Origin: Amyelois transitella
Lineage: Eukaryota > Arthropoda > Insecta > Lepidoptera > Pyralidae
NCBI RefSeq assembly: GCF_032362555.1
Contig: NC_083533.1
Coordinates: 2,671,001 to 2,735,000, forward strand
Direction of reading: 5' to 3'
Length of the DNA: 64,000 nucleotides
The stretch's first letter is position 1, and the number at the start of each line of letters is the position of its first letter. The position numbers and the translations under genes were made by a program. Below the pieces are notes generated by a model. That model did no database searches, was not told where the DNA came from, and worked only from the letters and a program-made list of their open reading frames with translations. Below, in pieces: positions 48,757 to 64,000 of the stretch.

Positions 48757-51700
48757 ATGGCGGTGGGTAAAAATAAAGGCCTATCGAAAGGCGGCAAGAA
48801 GGGTGTTAAGAAGAAGATGTAAGTTTGCAATATGGTCATAATATATTGGGTAAATCATTATACTTTCGATTTATCATTTATAGAATCCTTGTTTATTTGT
48901 GATCGCCACGATAAATGTAGATAAGACTGAGCGATCTCGTGTCTTAGATCTTTTTTAATGTTTGTATATTTGTGGATATTATACAAGTTCTGTGACAGGC
49001 AAACCCTTATTTGGAATCAGTGGTTAAAAGTATTGTGCTAGGAATTGCATTGCTACAAAATTCTTCGAGATATGAGACGAACAAATTAAGGTTAACTTCA
49101 AGTAATTTTTCAGTGTTGATCCCTTCACAAGAAAAGACTGGTATGATGTCAAGGCACCGTCCATGTTCACCAAGAGACAGGTGGGAACCACCCTCGTCAA
49201 CCGTACCCAGGTGAGTTTGTTTATATGTTTGGTTAAAAAAATAACCTAAAACTTAGTGTATTTTATAACCTACCATAGTAAACAATTAAAGAATTGTTTC
49301 TTTTTGCAATTAGCAAATTATATTTCCTTACTCTAAAGAAAGTCCAAATATCAACCACTACTGTTATCCATCGTGATTCAATATCTCAGTTCGCTATCAT
49401 TTTCACACGAACATTACTTTCTCTTTTATTTTTGAAAGATACATTAAGTTTTGGAAAAATATTACAAATTTTTGGGCTTTTGATTTACCCAATAGGGCCG
49501 TAAACACGTGAAAACGAAATTTTGTCTAGAATTTAGTTTACAGTAACTTGTATTAAAACTTTTGAGTGTATAAGAGTAAATAAAAAAAACTAAATGATGA
49601 CACACCTAGCTCGCAATGAAACAGATCTGATGAAAACTTCTGTTCCCTTTTGATTTATCACTGACAATATACATGCAAACACTTTGTTTTTTCACATAGT
49701 AACTGTGAGTCTAAAAAGGTAATTTATCTTAGGGTACGAAAATCGCTTCGGAGGGGCTGAAAGGCAGAGTGTTTGAAGTATCGCTGGCTGATCTTCAAGC
49801 TGACACTGATGCTGAAAGGTATGCTTCTTTTTCCATCTAGCTTTAACCCTGGTTACATCCTCACTTCTATGGAGAAGTGTCTGGGTCACACCTATGATGA
49901 TGAAAAAAGGTTTTTAGATGAATTCACTCTCATCTGACTTCTGCAACCTTTGTGCAAGGAAAAATGTGTTATGGGCAGGCTACTTAAACTGCATAAATTT
50001 ATGTTATGAAAGTTGTATTTTGTATGTTTGACCTTTACCTAAAACAACTATTTAATTTCAACATAACTTTCCCAAAACTATCTCTATTTAGCTTTTTATT
50101 ATGACTTGAAATGGGAGGAAGATAGTTTTCTGTACGATAAAAACTGTGTGGCGCGTGCCATTCTATGGGGGCAGGCATATAGCAATATTACACATAATTA
50201 AAAAAAAAATACCCTGCAGTCCAGCTATATGATGCACCATTTTGGTCTCCATATCGTTACAAACTGCAGATATTACTGCTGCCACATAATATTGTGCCTG
50301 CATACACTTGTGTAGGCCTTTTATGTCGTTGCTACAGTTTTGTGAGCACCATGTGCTTTTTGCCAGGGAAAAATGTGACTCCTCCATTTCTTGGATATGT
50401 CCATTAGCCCTAACAGTTAATAATAAATAAATAATTGTTTATTTATTTTTAGCTTTTAACAACTAGTGTTAGAACAATTTGATAACAGTCTTGTTCCATA
50501 GAAACTAAATCTTTTGGAGTAGATATAAATTGATGCTTTTGGTCACAATATGTTGACCACACTTTTACTGAAGTAATAATCACAAAAAAATAGTTTCATC
50601 CTACACAAACACCTACATTGTTGAACTATTAATTGTAGGTCTTTCCGCAAGTTCCGGCTTATCGCTGAGGACGTGCAGGGCCGCAATGTCCTGTGCAATT
50701 TCCATGGCATGGACCTCACCACTGACAAGCTCAGGTAATGTAACTTATTCTCTTGTCAATTTCCTAGTATCTATCCTAGTTTTGTTCCTGTTTCAAATGT
50801 TGGAAAGGGGTTGCTGGGAAGGGTATAAATATCTATCTATCTATAAATAAACACACATAACAATAATAAACATATATTTATAAATAAACACAGGTAACTT
50901 AACTATTTTATCTCAGACATTTCAAAGAATGATCCATCCATCATTATAATGATCCATGGTCACATTGTTACATGATTTGGAACATTATTATAATTATAAA
51001 TAGTATAATATACATGAAAGTTTGAAATCAGTTATAGGTCTATATCTATTAATGCTACCATTGAAAAGCTCCGATCAGGTCACTAGTATTAGTATAGATA
51101 AGCCGTTTCTAATGCCAGGTCTGCAGTCCAGCTATATGTTGAGCCCACATGGTCTTCATATCGTTTCAAACTGCACATATTGACGCTGTCACATGATGTA
51201 GTGCCTCTGTGTGTGTACATATACGCCTTTCATGTCATTGCTACATTCATTATCTGAGCTTTCTGCTCGCTATATTAGCTAGTTATGCTGTTTTTTATGA
51301 GCTATGATTACATTAAGACTGCATCTTATTAGTCAAAAGTGATAAAGTAAATGTCACACATCACTGTGAACCTTTTTCGTTCTTAAAACCTGTCTGCTGT
51401 TGAATGGAGCAGATTTACTTACTGTAGGAATTTGTTTGTGGCCTACTAAAAAGACCTGCTTGTACAGATTTTGTGCTACATTACAATTATAATATTAAAA
51501 ATTATTGCCTGTAGGTTTCATTCAAAACATAACTTTAATTTGATATAATCAGATTCAGAATAGCCGAAGAATAATAATTCGCAGTTACTGTTTAGTGGGT
51601 TATTCACTAATTATCGTTACTTGCCAACAGATGGATGGTAAAGAAATGGCAGACCCTAGTCGAGGCCAACATTGATGTTAAGACCACGGACGGGTACCTC

Positions 51701-53020
51701 CTTCGCGTGTTCTGCATCGGATTCACCAATAAGGACACGTTGAGCCAAAGGAAGACCTGCTATGCCCAGCACACTCAGGTAAATTGATTTATCTCTGCGT
51801 GTTCCCGCTCGCACCCTCAACAGAAGTGTTTCGGGGCCCGGGGTCCACTTTCCGACTTTTCCGGTTTTCGGCGTCCTCGGAGTTCAGTCCGTTAGGCTCA
51901 CATCATACATACATAAAATCACGCCTCTTTCCCGGAGGGGTAGGCAGGGACTACCTCTTTCCACTTGCCACGATCTCTGCATACTTCCTTCGCTTCATCC
52001 ACATTCTCTTTGCTCACATCATCTTTTGCAATATCATCTTTTCTTCGAAACTTAAATGATTGGGAAATAAACTACATTTATATTAGTAAGTTGTGATACA
52101 ATTATGCCAGGCATAGTGATGTCATTATTTTTAAACTGTAACAGTAATAGAAATGTTTATGGTCAAATTAGTATTCAATTTTTTACGAAATACGACGCGA
52201 CAAGGTCTTTAAAAAAAAGCTAGGAAAAGCATGTTGTTTTTTAAGTATTTTTAATTATTTATTAATTTAAATATTTTATTCAACCCACAGGTGCGAGCCA
52301 TCAGGAAGAAGATGTGCGAGATCATCACCCGTGACGTGACCAACTCTGAGCTGCGCGAGGTGGTCAACAAGCTGATCCCGGACTCCATCGCTAAAGACAT
52401 TGAGAAGGCCTGCCACGGCATCTACCCTCTCAGGGATGTTTGCATCAGAAAGGTGAGTTTGGTTAAATGAGTTTGATAATTTTCCTGCTGTACCGATTTG
52501 TATGTAAACCCCGTCTTGGGCAAGACTGACTTTGTTTTGGTATTTTTTTGCCACCTACTTGTAACAGCATATTTAGTCATATTCTGGAAATTCCCTTGTT
52601 AAGAAGTGCCCCTTTAATACATATGCACATTCTGCAATATGTAATTTTTTTCATTTGTCAGTCCATTTAAACTTGCTTATAACCTCCAAATAAAGAATTG
52701 TAGGTATATACTTTGTATCCCACTCCTATTTTTTTAAATGATGACACACCTAGCTCGCAATGACACATACATGATGAAAACTCATGTTCCCTTTTGATTT
52801 ACCGCTGATGGTCCCCACACTTGACTTGACAACCTCTTTTCTAGATCATGTGCTGACAGTTTATGCCTATTTCCAGGTGAAAGTGCTGAAGAGGCCGAGG
52901 TTTGAGATCTCTAAACTGATGGAGTTGCACGGGGAGGGAGGCGGCGGTAAACGCGGGGAAGTCGGGGACAAGTCGGAGCGTCCCGAGGGGTATGAACCGC
53001 CCGTGCAAGAGAGCGTATAA
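48757..53020 (+). CDS. RpS3A: 40S ribosomal protein S3A (eS1)
   Basis: Small-subunit ribosomal protein of the platform region. Seven exons, 48757-48818, 49114-49210, 49733-49818, 50639-50734, 51631-51778, 52291-52452 and 52877-53020, splice in frame to 264 residues, the normal family length. The protein begins [20 protein letters not shown] and continues [18 protein letters not shown], then [29 protein letters not shown] and [20 protein letters not shown], all recognisable S3A segments; it ends [11 protein letters not shown]. The Lys-rich start and acidic end are typical. AATAAA follows the stop by 4 nt. Introns 2, 3, 4 and 6 each hold a snoRNA-like gene, intron 3 also a repeat E copy, and intron 5 an RTE-tail insertion. 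Confidence 0.97.
49594..49664 (+). ncRNA. C/D-box snoRNA candidate in RpS3A intron 2
   Basis: Box C ATGATGA (49594-49600), an internal C' TGATGAA (49628-49634) and box D CTGA (49661-49664) are spaced as in a ~70-nt C/D snoRNA, which guides 2'-O-methylation of rRNA. It has a close paralogue in intron 6: the box C region through CTAGCTCGCAATGA and the stretch TGTTCCCTTTTGATTTA before box D are the same in both, while sequence between and around has diverged. Vertebrate RPS3A introns host the C/D RNA pair SNORD73A/B, so the same family is possible but untested. The terminal stem is weak. Confidence 0.75.
50067..50178 (+). repeat. Repeat E copy in RpS3A intron 3
   Basis: CCAAAACTATCTCTATTTAG..GGAAGATAGTTTTCTGTACG and GTGGCGCGTGCCATTCTATG, 35 bp before the H/ACA RNA. 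Diverged. Confidence 0.5.
50214..50339 (+). ncRNA. H/ACA-box snoRNA candidate in RpS3A intron 3
   Basis: 126 nt with the two-hairpin H/ACA plan. The 5' hairpin is closed by CTGCAGT pairing with ACTGCAG. A hinge ATATTA fits the H box ANANNA. A second hairpin contains ACATAA/TTATGT and GCCT..AGGC pairings, then ACA at 50334-50336, three bases from the 3' end. Such RNAs guide pseudouridylation of rRNA or snRNA. A diverged paralogue sits in intron 4, with the stems kept by compensating or shared bases. Confidence 0.75.
51121..51248 (+). ncRNA. H/ACA-box snoRNA candidate in RpS3A intron 4
   Basis: Paralogue of the intron 3 RNA, 128 nt. The basal stem TGCAGT/ACTGCA, the internal CCAGCTATATG/CATATCG pairing, the ACATGA/TCATGT stem of hairpin 2, and TTGCTACA with ACA three bases from the end are all kept. 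The ACATGA/TCATGT pair replaces ACATAA/TTATGT, a covariation that supports a real stem. The hinge reads ATATTG, one base off the H-box consensus. Confidence 0.72.
51907..52011 (-). mobile_element. RTE-tail fragment in RpS3A intron 5
   Basis: 105 bp, 11-bp duplication GCTCACATCAT at 51896-51906 and 52012-52022. The only LINE/SINE-type insertion found inside RpS3A. Confidence 0.8.
52738..52808 (+). ncRNA. C/D-box snoRNA candidate in RpS3A intron 6
   Basis: Paralogue of the intron 2 RNA: box C ATGATGA (52738-52744), C' ATGATGA (52771-52777) and box D CTGA (52805-52808). The two conserved blocks shared with intron 2 are the likely rRNA-pairing parts; the three bases just before box D differ. It ends 68 nt before exon 7, a usual position for an intron-encoded C/D RNA. 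Confidence 0.75.
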
Positions 53021-53434: not shown

Positions 53435-55100
53435 TATTCTTTACAGAACACGTAGAGAGCTTACAATTGATCTTTCTTACAAAAATTCAACCTTAAAATC
53501 TATATTTACAAATAAAATTAAGCATCTGATATTCAAAAATATGTTTACAAACTTTCAATTGGCTTTTGTAAAAAATAGAAGTATTTCAAACAACACGAAT
53601 TTTAAAATATTTACATAATTTTGTATTTTTGCACAAATAACTTCACGCAGAACACAACTGAAACTAGGTATAAAAATAATAAGGCAGTTGTCGCTTACTT
53701 ATTGACTGTTCCAGTGAAAGTGTTTTTGTTCAAGAAAGTACTTATAATATACAATACATACTAAAAAAAATATGCATACCTTCTACTTAATTGAATAATC
53801 CATACCAAATTTTGCAAGCCAACATACATACATATAGTCACGTCTATATCCCTTACGGGGTAGGCAGAGCCAATAGTCCCGAAAAGACTGAATGGCCACG
53901 TTCAGCTGCTCGGCTTAATGATGGAAAAATTACATAAATTCTCTCAATATACATGCTTTTAATTAAAAATATTGCCTACATAATGAAATGAACAAAATCT
54001 TTAAGGCGAAGTATGCGGTATTACTCTAAGTACATACTTACGATTATATATTTTTAAATTACCAATAGGATAAAAATCACTGGCAAGACCAAAAGTTCTA
54101 GCTTTTCTTTCTTTTTTTATGTTATACTTAGTTTATTAGCCTTATGATAATCTCAGGTATTAAATTACCTCTTGGTACGGGGGATCTCCGTGTACCAAGA
54201 GTTCATGTGTGAAAAACCAGGGTTGCCAACATTTGTCTTCGTTATTTGTCCATATTCATACAAAAAAAGCGATTAAGCGTTTTAGCTGTAAATCCTCACA
54301 GGCAATGACAAACTTTCAAATTACTTACACAATTATTTATTTTATTATTAAAAAAAATTAAATTATTAGATCTCGTCACTACATTAAGGGAATGTTTTGT
54401 TAAATAGTATTTTAAGCACCTATAAGATTCATTTACCACTAAGATTAAGATCTAGAATGTCTGTCCGAGGGAATTTCAAATCTGATAAAGGGAAATCCTA
54501 ATAATCTTACTAAATGTACTGTTTAATTCTATAACTTGTTCTTGAGCTTTTTAATGACATTGTACAGAGTCTTTTAGGCCTGAATTTGTCACAGACAGAC
54601 AGTTTCATTTTTTATTAAAGGTGTACCTAATAGGGATTATGTCTACACTTCTTTTTCACTTCACTCACATGAAATAGCTTTCAAAACCGCTTGCATACTT
54701 ACACGGAGTCTCATTTCAGTTTTTAAAGAGCAACAAATAAATAATTATGACATTAAATAAAATATGTAGATACTCTTACTAACTAAAGCGGATCAATTTT
54801 TCAATCAGTAGGCAGAATCGCCAAGCCTTATATTTTTTTCATATTGAATCATTTAAAATAACTTTTTTTTTAACATAACAATATAACATATAATATTGAC
54901 AAACCAACTCTTTTAACCGACAAATTTTAAAGGAAATCGTACTTTACTCGAAATGTATGTTACCTTTACTAAGTACTAGGTACTCTCTTTGACTTCAAGT
55001 ATAGGTACCTACGAGTGCCTACTTGGTGTAAAAAACGTCAAGGTATTCATTTGCTTAGTATTTATCGCCACGCTGATTTCAAACTTAGAACAGTTTTCTT
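53435..55100. other. Between RpS3A and the CD36 gene (tail to tail)
   Basis: AT-rich; possibly the long 3' UTR of the CD36-family gene. One SINE-A tail piece, reversed, at 53824-53926. Nothing else recognised. Confidence 0.45.
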
Positions 55101-61200: not shown

Positions 61201-64000
61201 GTGTAATCTGTCCTGTATATAATTATCTCACCGTAGCTAGGAGTCCAAATTGCTTGAATTTCAATTTGCCCTGAAGACTGAGTATCAGTTTGGTGGAATC
61301 TATGATGGTGTCTTCATAACCCCACAGGAATCTGTAGAAATTAAAGTCATTAAATTATATGTGCTAATACTATATACATATAATAACTATACTATTTATA
61401 GCCAAAAAGCTGAACGTGGCTTTTCAGTTTTTCATGACTGTTGGCTCTGTCTAACCCGCAACGAATATAGACGTGACTATATGTATGTATGAGGTAAAAT
61501 CTGCACGGGAAGAGAAGCAGTTGGCGCACACTATGTTTATTCTTCGCAATCAGGCCAGCACGGAAGCTCGCCCTATGCCCTATACTCGCCTTTTACGACA
61601 TCCAAGACAAAGACATGGAGTCAGTAAGCTAACCAATTCATGAGTTCTGTCTAACCCGTAAGGTATGAAGTCGTGATTGTATGTATGTATGTATGAATTG
61701 CGACTAAGCGACCAGTTCTCCCCGCCTGTTGACATTTCATCAAGTAAATTACTAACTGTTTGCGACGTTACTACTTTTTCTAATTGTCGATCTAGAATGT
61801 ACTATTAATCTTAGAGTGGTATTCCATTAATGAAATAGCTTTGTTACAATTTCTACGTACATGATACGTCAAAACATTACAAGCGTAAGTACAGTATCTA
61901 CTACCTGTACCTACCTACCAAGTTTATAAGTCGCTAAGATAAAATTCGATGGCACAGATTAGTGCAACCTACAGACGAATCAAACCGCGAGAAAACTCAA
62001 CAAAATGACGATCCTAGCACGTTCAACTTAAAATAAAAAAAAAAATATCCTGCTATCTCGCTCACATTAGTAAATAGCGGACAGTTCATGTTCGCGGGTT
62101 TAAATGTCGCGCTCTGAACGGCTTAAATATATTTTCGCGCCATAAAAAAAAAACAAAGTAACTATCTGAAAAAACTTAAATTTGAATAAAGTGTTTGTTA
62201 AGCGAGCGCGATCGCTATTTCACTTTTTATTATGACGTGAAACAGGACAGCGATAGTTTTATGCGCTTTAACAACGGCGTCGTAAATATAAATAATAAAA
62301 TAAATAAATATATACGGGACAAATTACACTGATTGAGTTAGCCTCGAAGTAAGTTCGAAACTTGTGTTACGAGATACTAACTCAACGATACTATATTTTA
62401 TAATAAATACTTATATAGATAAACATCCAAGACCCAGGACAATCAGAAAAAGTTCTTTTCTCATCATGCCTTGACCGGGATTCGAACCCGGGACCTCCGG
62501 TGTCACAGACAAGCGTACTACCGCTGAGCCACAGAGGCCGTCGTGCTTACCATGCTTTCATTCATCTCTTACAGATCACTAACCATAGATAAGAATATTT
62601 TCTGTCACTAACCACCATCATATTAAATATGTGATATAGAAAAAAATCTTTGATAATTCATGTTTTTCGTAATTCTGAGCATTATACCTGTTTTTTTTTT
62701 AATTTATTTTCAAAATTGGATACAAGCTATCACTTGTTGACGTCACATCACTGAAATCTAATTATAACTACTACCGCTTCCAAAGCGCATGTGTAGAAGA
62801 AACGGCGGAACAAACTATACTGCAGCATTTTCGCCACACGTCAATTTACAAATTGTTTACATTAAAAAACATAAATTAATGTAAAGAAGTTATGAATGTG
62901 GATGAAGCGAAGGAAGTATGCAGAGATCGTGGCAAGTGGAAAGAGGTAGTGTCTGCCTACCCCTCCGGGAAAGAGGCGTGATTTTATCTATGTATGTATG
63001 TATTAATGTAAACACCTGTGGACCGGGAGCCTGATGAAAGCGTCCTTGTTCTGCACGAAGTTGAGAGCTGTCTGCAAGGAGAATTCCTGGAAACGGTTCA
63101 GATCCATATCCTTGGCTTTTGAAATTACACCCTGTAACAAGAGAATGGTTAAATATTTGGAATGATTTCTCCGCAATATGTGACAAAACAAAGTGCCGTG
63201 TGGTTGCCGGCACCAATAAAAAAAGAATAGGACCACTCCATCTCATTTCCCATGGATGTCGTACAAGGCGACTAACGGATAGGCTTATAAGCTTAGGTTT
63301 CTTATTTTAGGCGATTGGCTAGAAACCTGTCACTATTTGAATCTCAATTCTATCATAAACCCAAACAGCTGAACTTGGCCTATCAGTCTCTTTAAGGCTG
63401 TTGGCTCTGTCTACCCCGCACGGGATATAGACGTGACTATAAAAATGAATGAATGAATGAAAATAAAAATCAGAAATTAACATTAATCAACTCAATATTT
63501 TGAAAATTCATGTTCCTTGTTTACTGTGTCATTTCATGACTGTGATTAGCAATGACTCTTTTCTCTGTTATAATAGTATAGAATAGAGTTATTTTCAAAA
63601 TTGGATACAAGGTATCACTTATTGACGTCAAATCTAATTGTAACTACTACCACTTCCAAAGCGCATGTGTAGAAGAAGCGGCGGAACAAACTACACTACA
63701 GCCTGTTAGTTGATTCTTACTGTGCAGAAGAACGTCGTGAGGAAACCTCTACATTAATTCAGTGCCTCGTGTATAAACATAACTCCACAGAGACTCACTT
63801 CTCTGTCTCTCAACCAAGAATCACGTCAGAAGGTAGCTGATGGTAGGAATTTAGAAGAAATTCTGGACTCACAAGTAGTGGTAAGTTGGGTACGACGACT
63901 TGGTCAAAATGCGCCCCCGAGGTCAATTCAGGCATATACCTGAAGTAGTTCCTCTCTTGGAAGCTGAGTTGGTCTCCTTCGAAGTCTATGTTCACACGTT
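55227..64000 (-). CDS. CD36-family scavenger receptor class B, C-terminal part (5' end outside window)
   Basis: Lipid-binding cell-surface or lysosomal receptor with a large extracellular loop between two membrane helices. Exons from right to left: 63873-64000 (open), 63016-63131, 61232-61331, 59916-60043, 58451-58571, 57713-57860, 57083-57233, 55785-55881 and 55227-55430; all phases agree and give about 397 residues, so roughly 100 N-terminal residues are missing. Family marks: QERNYFRYMPELTSG, VVVPNLPLL, FLWGYEDTI, NFWGSPECN, DGSIFPPSQL, GAPAMVSFPHFYLGDPQL and a C-terminal helix LGLTVTCVVALVVSAICL. Six extracellular cysteines (ECN, NLC, QCYC, TC, AC) fit the three conserved disulfides. N-glycosylation sites include NDT, NRT and NVT. 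The cytosolic tail ends TEKAQFS. Which SR-B subgroup (SNMP, ninaD-like, croquemort-like) cannot be told. Confidence 0.93.
55676..55758 (-). repeat. SINE-A fragment next to a CD36 exon
   Basis: AAGCCTATCCCTTAGTCGCC to GGAAAC, ending 26 bp from the exon at 55785. Confidence 0.55.
56078..56889. mobile_element. Long inverted-repeat (fold-back) element in a CD36 intron
   Basis: Left arm about 56078-56418 and right arm about 56550-56889 are reverse complements with scattered mismatches; ends are TGTTACAGTTAAAACTAG and CTAGTTTTAACTGTAACA, flanked by TA-rich sequence. Inside each arm the motif GTTAAAACTAGTT or its complement recurs about six times. The loop holds the first ~35 bp of a SINE-A. There is no coding capacity. 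It looks like a non-autonomous fold-back or MITE-type DNA element. The intron RNA could form an ~330-bp hairpin. Confidence 0.8.
57266..57526 (+). mobile_element. SINE-A copy in CD36 intron
   Basis: GTGCCGTGAGGTTCCCGGC to ATATGTATGTATGT, 33 bp upstream (in gene sense) of the exon at 57083-57233. Confidence 0.7.
57889..58148 (+). mobile_element. Repeat D, full copy
   Basis: ACTAGCTGTGCCCGCGACTT to TTTATAATATTAGTATTTTA; the best copy of this repeat, 29 bp from a CD36 exon. Confidence 0.7.
58688..59085 (-). repeat. SINE-A pieces and a repeat H piece
   Basis: 58688-58832 diverged minus SINE-A; repeat H-like 58850-58920 (GAGACGGATTTTGATAAAAT); 59035-59085 only a minus tail. Confidence 0.5.
59297..59863. 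mobile_element. Three SINE-A pieces
   Basis: Minus 59297-59508 (nearly full), plus 59530-59722 and plus 59728-59863, the last two lacking heads. Confidence 0.65.
60405..60930 (-). other. CD36 intron stretch, possible old LINE 3' end
   Basis: AATAAAATAGAATCTTTATTTGC at its left resembles the A/T-rich 3' end of a reversed LINE. No RT motif is visible. Confidence 0.25.
61013..61229 (+). mobile_element. SINE-F copy beside a CD36 exon
   Basis: Degraded tRNA head, GGAGTTCGATTCCGGTCAGG (box B), AACTTTTTCTGATTAACCTG, GTATCGTTGAGTTGGTATC, ATCTGTCCTGTATATAATT. It ends 2-3 bp before the splice donor of exon 61232-61331. Confidence 0.65.
61402..61695. repeat. SINE-A tails
   Basis: Plus 61402-61488; mixed pieces 61560-61695 ending in four TGTA units. 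Confidence 0.55.
62200..62286 (+). repeat. Repeat E copy
   Basis: GCGATCGCTATTTCAC..GTGAAACAGGACAGCGATAG; cut by the SINE-F that follows. Confidence 0.5.
62291..62540 (-). mobile_element. SINE-F, full copy
   Basis: On the minus strand: GCCTCTGTGGCTCAGCGGTA, CCCGGGTTCGAATCCCGGTC, the same body as 37671-37895, and an ATTTATTT tail. Confidence 0.75.
62705..62850 (+). repeat. Repeat C copy
   Basis: TTTTCAAAATTGGATACAAG, CTACCGCTTCCAAAGCGCAT, GAAACGGCGGAACAAACTA. Confidence 0.6.
62886..63001 (+). mobile_element. RTE-tail fragment at a CD36 splice donor
   Basis: 116 bp, 11-bp duplication ATTAATGTAAA at 62875-62885 and 63002-63012. The right duplication lies at positions +4 to +14 of the intron after exon 63016-63131. 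Confidence 0.8.
63194..63460 (+). mobile_element. SINE-A followed by (AATG)n
   Basis: 63194-63440 nearly full (GTGCCGTGTGGTTGCCGGC to GACGTGACTATA); the tail is AATGAATGAATGAATG instead of TGTA units. Confidence 0.7.
63590..63705 (+). repeat. Repeat C copy
   Basis: Close to 62705-62850 (TTTTCAAAATTGGATACAAG, GAAGAAGCGGCGGAACAAAC), only 0.8 kb away. A SINE-G piece (CGTCGTGAGGAAACCTCTAC) follows at 63735. Confidence 0.6.

Follow-up and report, generated by a model that had tools for sequence, protein, structure and literature searches.

Two pairs of putative guide RNAs in the introns of RpS3A of Amyelois transitella, with predicted targets two nucleotides apart in 28S ribosomal RNA

Published accounts already place on record intronic guide RNAs in ribosomal-protein genes, within-gene duplicates in neighbouring introns, and both guide classes in one such gene. 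In the fly, 27 ribosomal-protein genes host small nucleolar RNAs (snoRNAs) (PMC2246290). In chicken, snoRNA copies arise mainly by duplication inside their host gene, and RPL21 holds one box C/D and one box H/ACA RNA (PMC2653536). Here we describe RpS3A of the lepidopteran Amyelois transitella, a gene located in a window of 64,000 nucleotides (nt; positions 2671001-2735000 of contig C29, NC_083533.1) of a 327-Mb genome of 33 contigs. The analysis confirmed, at the level of sequence, the prediction that RpS3A hosts four intronic guide snoRNAs, which are two RNAs, each in two copies within the gene.

The closest described guides address two neighbouring positions of the large-subunit ribosomal RNA (rRNA). 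Human 28S carries psi4491 and Am4493 (PMC6182160). The guide U29 (RF00070) is directed at human Am4493, and snR71, of the same clan, guides the yeast equivalent (PMC3511168); Am2946 in yeast is assigned to snR71 (PMC5199042). The chicken RNA GGgACA30 guides 28S-3976 through a 5' pocket of 4+7 nt and has snR37 and ACA10 as functional homologs (PMC2653536). Chicken 3976 is the human number minus 515, and the identical shift leads from human 4331, the target of ACA23 (PMC6466398), to chicken 3816. Our best explanation of the RpS3A introns, which we consider very probable, is that the gene hosts four intronic guides, of which the C/D RNA would direct modification of the A of the Am2946/Am4493 type and the H/ACA RNA that of the U of the U2944/U4491 type.

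The host gene has the following layout.

48757-48818, 49114-49210, 49733-49818, 50639-50734, 51631-51778, 52291-52452 and 52877-53020, plus strand: the seven coding exons of RpS3A, with six GT-AG introns

Spliced in silico, the seven exons yield an uninterrupted protein of 264 residues, which matches the Pfam family Ribosomal_S3Ae at 262 bits (cut-off 29.3) and aligns end to end with 40S S3a/eS1 chains.

Introns 2 and 6 had been predicted to share a C/D RNA. Local alignment of the whole introns produced one ungapped island (49591-49664 and 52735-52808) with a score of 108, while the best of 200 shuffles reached 36. Of 72 positions, 64 are identical between the two copies without gaps. Both carry boxes C, C' and D, as predicted, and a box D' as well.

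49593-49665, plus strand: box C/D RNA copy a in intron 2, 67 nt before the 3' splice site
49594-49600, plus strand: box C of copy a, ATGATGA
49604-49614, plus strand: putative D' guide of copy a, ACCTAGCTCGC, which pairs with 28S GTGAGCTGGGT
49616-49619, plus strand: box D' of copy a, ATGA
49627-49633, plus strand: box C' of copy a, CTGATGA
49641-49657, plus strand: second conserved block of copy a, TGTTCCCTTTTGATTTA, without an established target
49661-49664, plus strand: box D of copy a, CTGA
52737-52809, plus strand: box C/D RNA copy b in intron 6, 67 nt before the 3' splice site
52738-52744, plus strand: box C of copy b, ATGATGA
52748-52758, plus strand: putative D' guide of copy b, identical to that of copy a
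52760-52763, plus strand: box D' of copy b, ATGA
52771-52777, plus strand: box C' of copy b, ATGATGA
52785-52801, plus strand: second conserved block of copy b, TGTTCCCTTTTGATTTA
52805-52808, plus strand: box D of copy b, CTGA

Boxes C and D are exact in both copies and lie 67 nt apart, start to start; the D' box ATGA is one change away from CTGA in both. Two blocks are identical between the copies: the initial 27 nt, which comprise box C, the D' guide and box D', and 17 nt before box D. The end of the RNA is separated from the next exon by 67 nt in both introns, despite the diverged flanks. For intronic C/D RNAs, the expected distance to the 3' splice site is about 70 nt. If alternative pairings within intron 6 are set aside, the six RpS3A introns contain no further RTGATGA...CTGA pairs, and the C/D sequence pattern was not found in the viral contig or genome contig collections that were searched.

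The H/ACA RNA that introns 3 and 4 were said to share was recovered by local alignment as an island (50214-50336 and 51121-51245) that ends exactly at the ACA and scores 100, with a maximum of 34 among 200 shuffles.

50214-50339, plus strand: box H/ACA RNA copy a in intron 3, 3' end placed at ACA + 3 nt by inference
50218-50226, plus strand: left arm of the putative 5' pocket of copy a, 9 nt, which pairs with 28S AGCTGGGTT
50255-50258, plus strand: right arm of the putative 5' pocket of copy a, CGTT, 4 nt
50270-50275, plus strand: box H of copy a, ATATTA
50334-50336, plus strand: box ACA of copy a
51121-51248, plus strand: box H/ACA RNA copy b in intron 4, 3' end placed at ACA + 3 nt by inference
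51125-51133, plus strand: left arm of the putative 5' pocket of copy b, 9 nt
51162-51167, plus strand: right arm of the putative 5' pocket of copy b, CGTTTC, 6 nt
51177-51182, plus strand: non-canonical hinge of copy b, ATATTG, in place of box H
51243-51245, plus strand: box ACA of copy b

Both copies have two hairpins, a hinge and an ACA tail, in which the ACA lies one U past the lower stem. Of the shared features named in the original prediction, the conserved stems and TTGCTACA, common to both copies, were borne out, but the hinge was so only in part, its box H being non-canonical in copy b. All 22 pairs of the common structure form in copy a and 21 of them in copy b, in which one pair is broken; two of the 22 are compensated (C-G to U-A and A-U to G-C). 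Because this structure was drawn by the analyst from the pairs common to two sequences only, the compensatory changes are supportive and do not amount to a covariation test. Differences between the copies cluster apically, where conservation drops to 10 of 18 and 18 of 33 columns; in the 5' hairpin, the two guide arms and the left strand of its upper stem together retain 18 of 19. The 5' pocket lies 15 nt before box H, and pockets of H/ACA guides usually stand about 14-16 nt ahead of box H or ACA.

These differences also allow the reading that the C/D and H/ACA RNAs are real, and that the intron 4 copy is decaying, which would leave three of the four RNAs at work. The hinge of that copy does not follow ANANNA, its outermost 5' lower-stem pair is broken (C-C), and its fold has a z-score against shuffles of -0.08 versus -3.46 for copy a. 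Its pocket pairing, however, is the better one (6+9 versus 4+9 nt), two of its pairs are compensated rather than broken, and its ACA is kept. We regard decay of the intron 4 copy as possible, though rather unlikely.

Two more H/ACA candidates, one in intron 1 (TTGCTACA near 49050) and one at 51362-51495 in intron 4, were rejected; shuffled sequences fold at least as well as these candidates (z 0.36 and 0.00, respectively). A 17-base pattern of the H/ACA RNA matched five viral contigs, none of which fitted the covariance model.

Outside the islands the intronic sequence has diverged, in agreement with the original prediction. The 60-nt flanks of the C/D pair are identical at 16 positions before and 12 after the RNA, which is the chance level, and those of the H/ACA pair at 13 and 16. 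The similarity thereby stops at the RNA ends, as it would after insertion of a mature RNA, and intron 3 also holds a dispersed repeat adjoining its H/ACA copy. The islands could accordingly be mobile or retroposed copies of small RNAs, similar to a snoRNA retrogene spread in the manner of a short interspersed nuclear element (SINE), and not maintained guides. We consider this very improbable. There are only two genome copies of each RNA, all in one gene and in the sense orientation; the C/D copies have equal splice-site distances, the H/ACA copies show compensatory changes, and the guides are intact. The DNA search of the whole 327-Mb genome, which skips simple and very common words, found each RNA at its two RpS3A places only (two candidates each, both scored). 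Covariance models of both RNAs recovered only the known copies within the window, with two additional chance-level places (E 2.2) for the model R1. A retroposed origin followed by later use as guides is conceivable. The presence of four putative guides of both classes, each duplicated in one gene, agrees with what had been predicted, and both pairs are apparently kept by selection, as judged from their conservation.

The repeat in intron 3 is SINE-like and occupies 50074-50176, upstream of H/ACA copy a. A query with 50000-50400 retrieved 41 genome places, 39 of which are other copies of this repeat with 75-85% identity; the rest are H/ACA copy b and a self-match to the window. A likeness spotted by eye between about 51905-51960 in intron 5 and 53820-53870 downstream of RpS3A (tacatacata ... 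cacg ... ggggtaggcag) is probably due to another dispersed repeat.

The rRNA targets scanned were 18S, 5.8S and the initial 996 nt of 28S, all taken from the genome (L013), and a 125-nt 28S fragment (L015). The latter belongs to a public viral contig record whose first 125 nt read as eukaryotic 28S; a search for a universal 28S motif located this motif at the record's end. The genome contains four 5.8S copies on contigs C26 and C30 (L009-L014), and in two ribosomal DNA units of these contigs the letters of 28S turn to N at a round contig coordinate and stay so beyond it.

The numbering of the fragment was established by an offset test, in which the letters of L015 fit eight of eight yeast and nine of nine human modified positions at one single offset, the next best offsets reaching 5 and 6. 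Three of the yeast positions are pseudouridines. The other five are ribose sites (PMC5199042), and the human list is that given in PMC6182160. An earlier assignment of the 28S site to Gm2791/Gm2793 (snR48, SNORD60) was rejected, as the spacing of the mapped positions did not fit; the offset test placed the site at 2944/2946. The stretch ACGUGAGCUGGG contains both predicted targets, the A for 2'-O-methylation and the U for pseudouridylation.

The D' guide of the C/D RNA can form 11 base pairs with 28S GTGAGCTGGGT, including two G-U pairs, with a duplex energy of -20.0 kcal/mol; the remaining targets offer it no more than 7 nt. Counting five nucleotides from D', as the D'+5 rule requires, leads to A34 of L015, which is A2946 in yeast and A4493 in human. 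Among 2000 shuffled D' guides, 0.05% reached the observed score in the fragment and 3.6% over all four targets, and the second figure is the fairer one because the fragment was chosen for the D' match.

To define the 5' pocket of the H/ACA RNA, the weak AGC/GUU pairs of the fold were taken as open. The pocket fits best at U32 of L015 (U2944 in yeast, U4491 in human), with scores of 29 for copy a and 32.5 for copy b; the next best U among all those of the scanned targets scores 15 and 15.5, respectively. Shuffled 2000 times and scored against all targets, the copy a pocket gave a 99% quantile of 24.5 and at most 31, and 0.02% of 5000 pocket shuffles over the L015 fragment alone reached 24. The 3' pocket of copy a pairs with 18S U1861 over 7+4 nt, with a score of 18.5 that lies below the 95% quantile of 21 obtained when the 5' pocket was shuffled; the 3' pocket of copy b does not fit 18S U1861. 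We treat the 3' pockets as probably non-guiding.

The strongest evidence for the proposed assignment is that two RNA classes with separate anatomy converge, in their predicted pairing, on positions 2 nt apart, both of which are modified in human. Computation showed the anatomy of the RNAs and the conservation of the pairs, the compensatory changes and the distance to the splice site, as well as the complementarity and its agreement with modified positions that have been mapped. The original prediction had spoken of a compact modification cassette, and this description would hold in a stronger sense than proposed, because both classes appear to address one 28S spot.

Based on these features, a mechanism can be proposed, in which the expression and processing of the putative guides and the two rRNA modifications are what we infer. 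The RpS3A introns would be spliced out and trimmed, which would release the C/D and H/ACA RNAs. The C/D RNA from introns 2 and 6 would form a particle with fibrillarin, and its D' guide would bind 28S GUGAGCUGGGU and lead to 2'-O-methylation of the A in it. The H/ACA RNA from introns 3 and 4 would form a particle with dyskerin and hold ...AACG and AGCUGGGUU in its 5' pocket. This particle would convert to pseudouridine the U located two nucleotides upstream of the methylated A (U2944 in yeast, U4491 in human).

The 28S footprints in L015 overlap, with the C/D RNA covering 31-41 and the H/ACA RNA 26-31 or 28-31 plus 34-42. Because of this overlap the two particles presumably cannot bind together and would therefore act in turn, whether in a set order or in competition. 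RpS3A might then be a dosage-matched module for mutually exclusive particles that act in order, one transcript with two copies of each guide ensuring equal supply and the second C/D block helping one particle to follow or displace the other (GTTCCCT/AGGGAAC); we find this elaboration doubtful. AGGGAAC, which immediately precedes the D' duplex on 28S, can form seven Watson-Crick pairs with GTTCCCT of the second block, and 3.7% of shuffles equal this. Extra pairing beside the guide duplex has been described for yeast guides, and we take the GTTCCCT/AGGGAAC pairing as a lead to such extra pairing only.

The same block bears on the question of other targets. As for the rRNA and small nuclear RNA (snRNA) complementarity that had been anticipated, the D' guide and the 5' pocket found their partners in 28S, but the second block and U6 yielded no convincing target. 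The snoRNAs might act mainly on messenger RNA, on snRNA or on a different rRNA site by way of the second block, with the 28S match secondary; the 17-nt block equals the D' guide in conservation, and the sequence scanned offered it no established rRNA target. Both classes, however, point independently at two positions that are modified in human, and U6 offers the C/D guide elements at most 9 nt with G-U pairs. Main activity on other targets is therefore improbable in our judgement. Matches of 9-10 nt to 5.8S and 18S for a guide beside box D were rejected, as they variously include G-U pairs, vary from one copy to the other, or begin 3 nt away from the box.

By its D' guide the C/D RNA resembles SNORD29, U29 and snR71 (RF00070 and RF00479, clan CL00051). 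They have in common CUAGCUC followed by AUGA and, by D'+5, the target A; the RNA of RpS3A differs in scoring far under the Rfam cut-off, in its host gene and in the second conserved block before box D. Narrow Rfam searches of the individual RNAs against 4227 families matched copy b with SNORD29 at 17.0 bits (E 0.32, cut-off 48), and the alignment brings together CUAGCUC and AUGA. This match alone would prove little, because snR56 reaches 17.6 bits, but with E 1.1, and several other C/D families score at a similar level in both copies. Because the SNORD29 matches are below threshold or lacking, we assign function by guide and target and not by orthology. The C/D RNA is probably a functional counterpart of SNORD29/U29/snR71, its status as an ortholog being unproven. 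The best Rfam match of copy a, by bits and E-value, is DdR11 (RF01561), a Dictyostelium C/D RNA, at 17.2 and, for copy b, 16.1 bits (E 0.19 and 0.34, respectively, cut-off 65), in which AGCUC of the D' guide and UGUUCC of the second block line up with the C/D RNA; this likeness could be due to chance.

The H/ACA copies share with snR37, ACA10 (SNORA10), SNORA82 and chicken GGgACA30 a 5' pocket for the same uridine, human psi4491. The host differs, being EIF4A2 in chicken and RpS3A here. Among the Rfam matches of the H/ACA copies there was none by the name of snR37 or SNORA10; the sole H/ACA family was the nematode ceN36-1 (RF01627), which was the best match of both copies (24.9 and 22.5 bits, E 0.0076 and 0.027) below its cut-off of 48. 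The pocket letters of ceN36-1, UCCAGCU and CGUU, are in register with both copies. For the covariance-model comparison that had been foreseen, this means that nothing reached a gathering score, but that the weak ceN36-1 and SNORD29 matches agree with the predicted targets.

The prediction that the C/D RNA is related to the SNORD73 pair of vertebrate RPS3A found no support. Descent from this RNA, with the host kept since the common ancestor, would account for the likeness of host gene and RNA class, and intron 5 of chicken RPS3A holds U73b, listed as an orphan in the text of PMC2653536. The SNORD73 model (RF00071), however, has no match in RpS3A at E up to 10. In the genome-wide search its best score was 29.5 bits (cut-off 42), with none of the seven listed places in RpS3A (63 of 157571 first-look candidates scored). 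The D' guide, moreover, fits the U29/snR71 site. We regard descent from SNORD73 as most improbable. Whether the Spodoptera RNA Sf-15 or Bm-15 is identical with the C/D RNA cannot be judged from the text of PMC6458620.

Several observations weigh against the assignment of the four RNAs to the 28S site. The letters of the site come from L015, another record than the 28S of A. transitella itself, and the scan of 28S covered about 1 kb and the 125 nt. The D' shuffle test is biased, as L015 was sought after the D' match had been recognised, and the H/ACA match in L015 was noticed by eye before the scripted scan. On the antisense strands of the targets the pockets score 21.5 (copy a) and 16.5 (copy b). 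No Rfam family reached its gathering score in RpS3A, and searches of the window with curated cut-offs and of the 4.5-kb gene with E values of 10 or less yielded no snoRNA; the weak matches emerged from the narrow searches alone. SNORD29 is not listed for C/D copy a, which is matched weakly (13.1 bits) by snR61 of the same clan. Genome-wide, the SNORD29 model gave four weak places among the matches listed, the best with 26.5 of 48 bits and none in RpS3A (62 of 102677 first-look candidates scored). The C/D copies fold no more stably than their shuffled versions (z 0.58 and 0.08), and no terminal stem joining boxes C and D is seen in the adjacent letters or the folds of either copy. Many intronic C/D RNAs have no terminal stem or have an outer one. 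To these points belong the fold of H/ACA copy b, no better than shuffles, its lack of the canonical box H present in copy a, and the absence of a convincing target in the scanned rRNA for the 17-nt block.

We regard the RNAs of RpS3A as probable new members of known guide families, and the co-hosting of both guides for one site pair as a mild surprise and a modest new detail. One gene with both guides of such a site pair was not found in the accessible text of the literature examined, which did not extend to the snoRNA catalogues of fly and silkworm, and we make no claim of its absence in print. A literature search linking snoRNA, Bombyx and RpS3A returned nothing, and five sequence strings of the RNAs are not printed in the main texts searched. 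The analysis turned conserved islands into four predicted guides, none reaching an Rfam cut-off, with testable, nucleotide-exact targets. If both guides share RpS3A in other insects, the gene would be a place to ask whether guides for overlapping sites need linked expression.

Elsewhere in the window, a transfer RNA (tRNA) gene for histidine with the anticodon GTG lies on the minus strand at 62467-62538, as identified by ARAGORN and by the Rfam tRNA model at the identical place.

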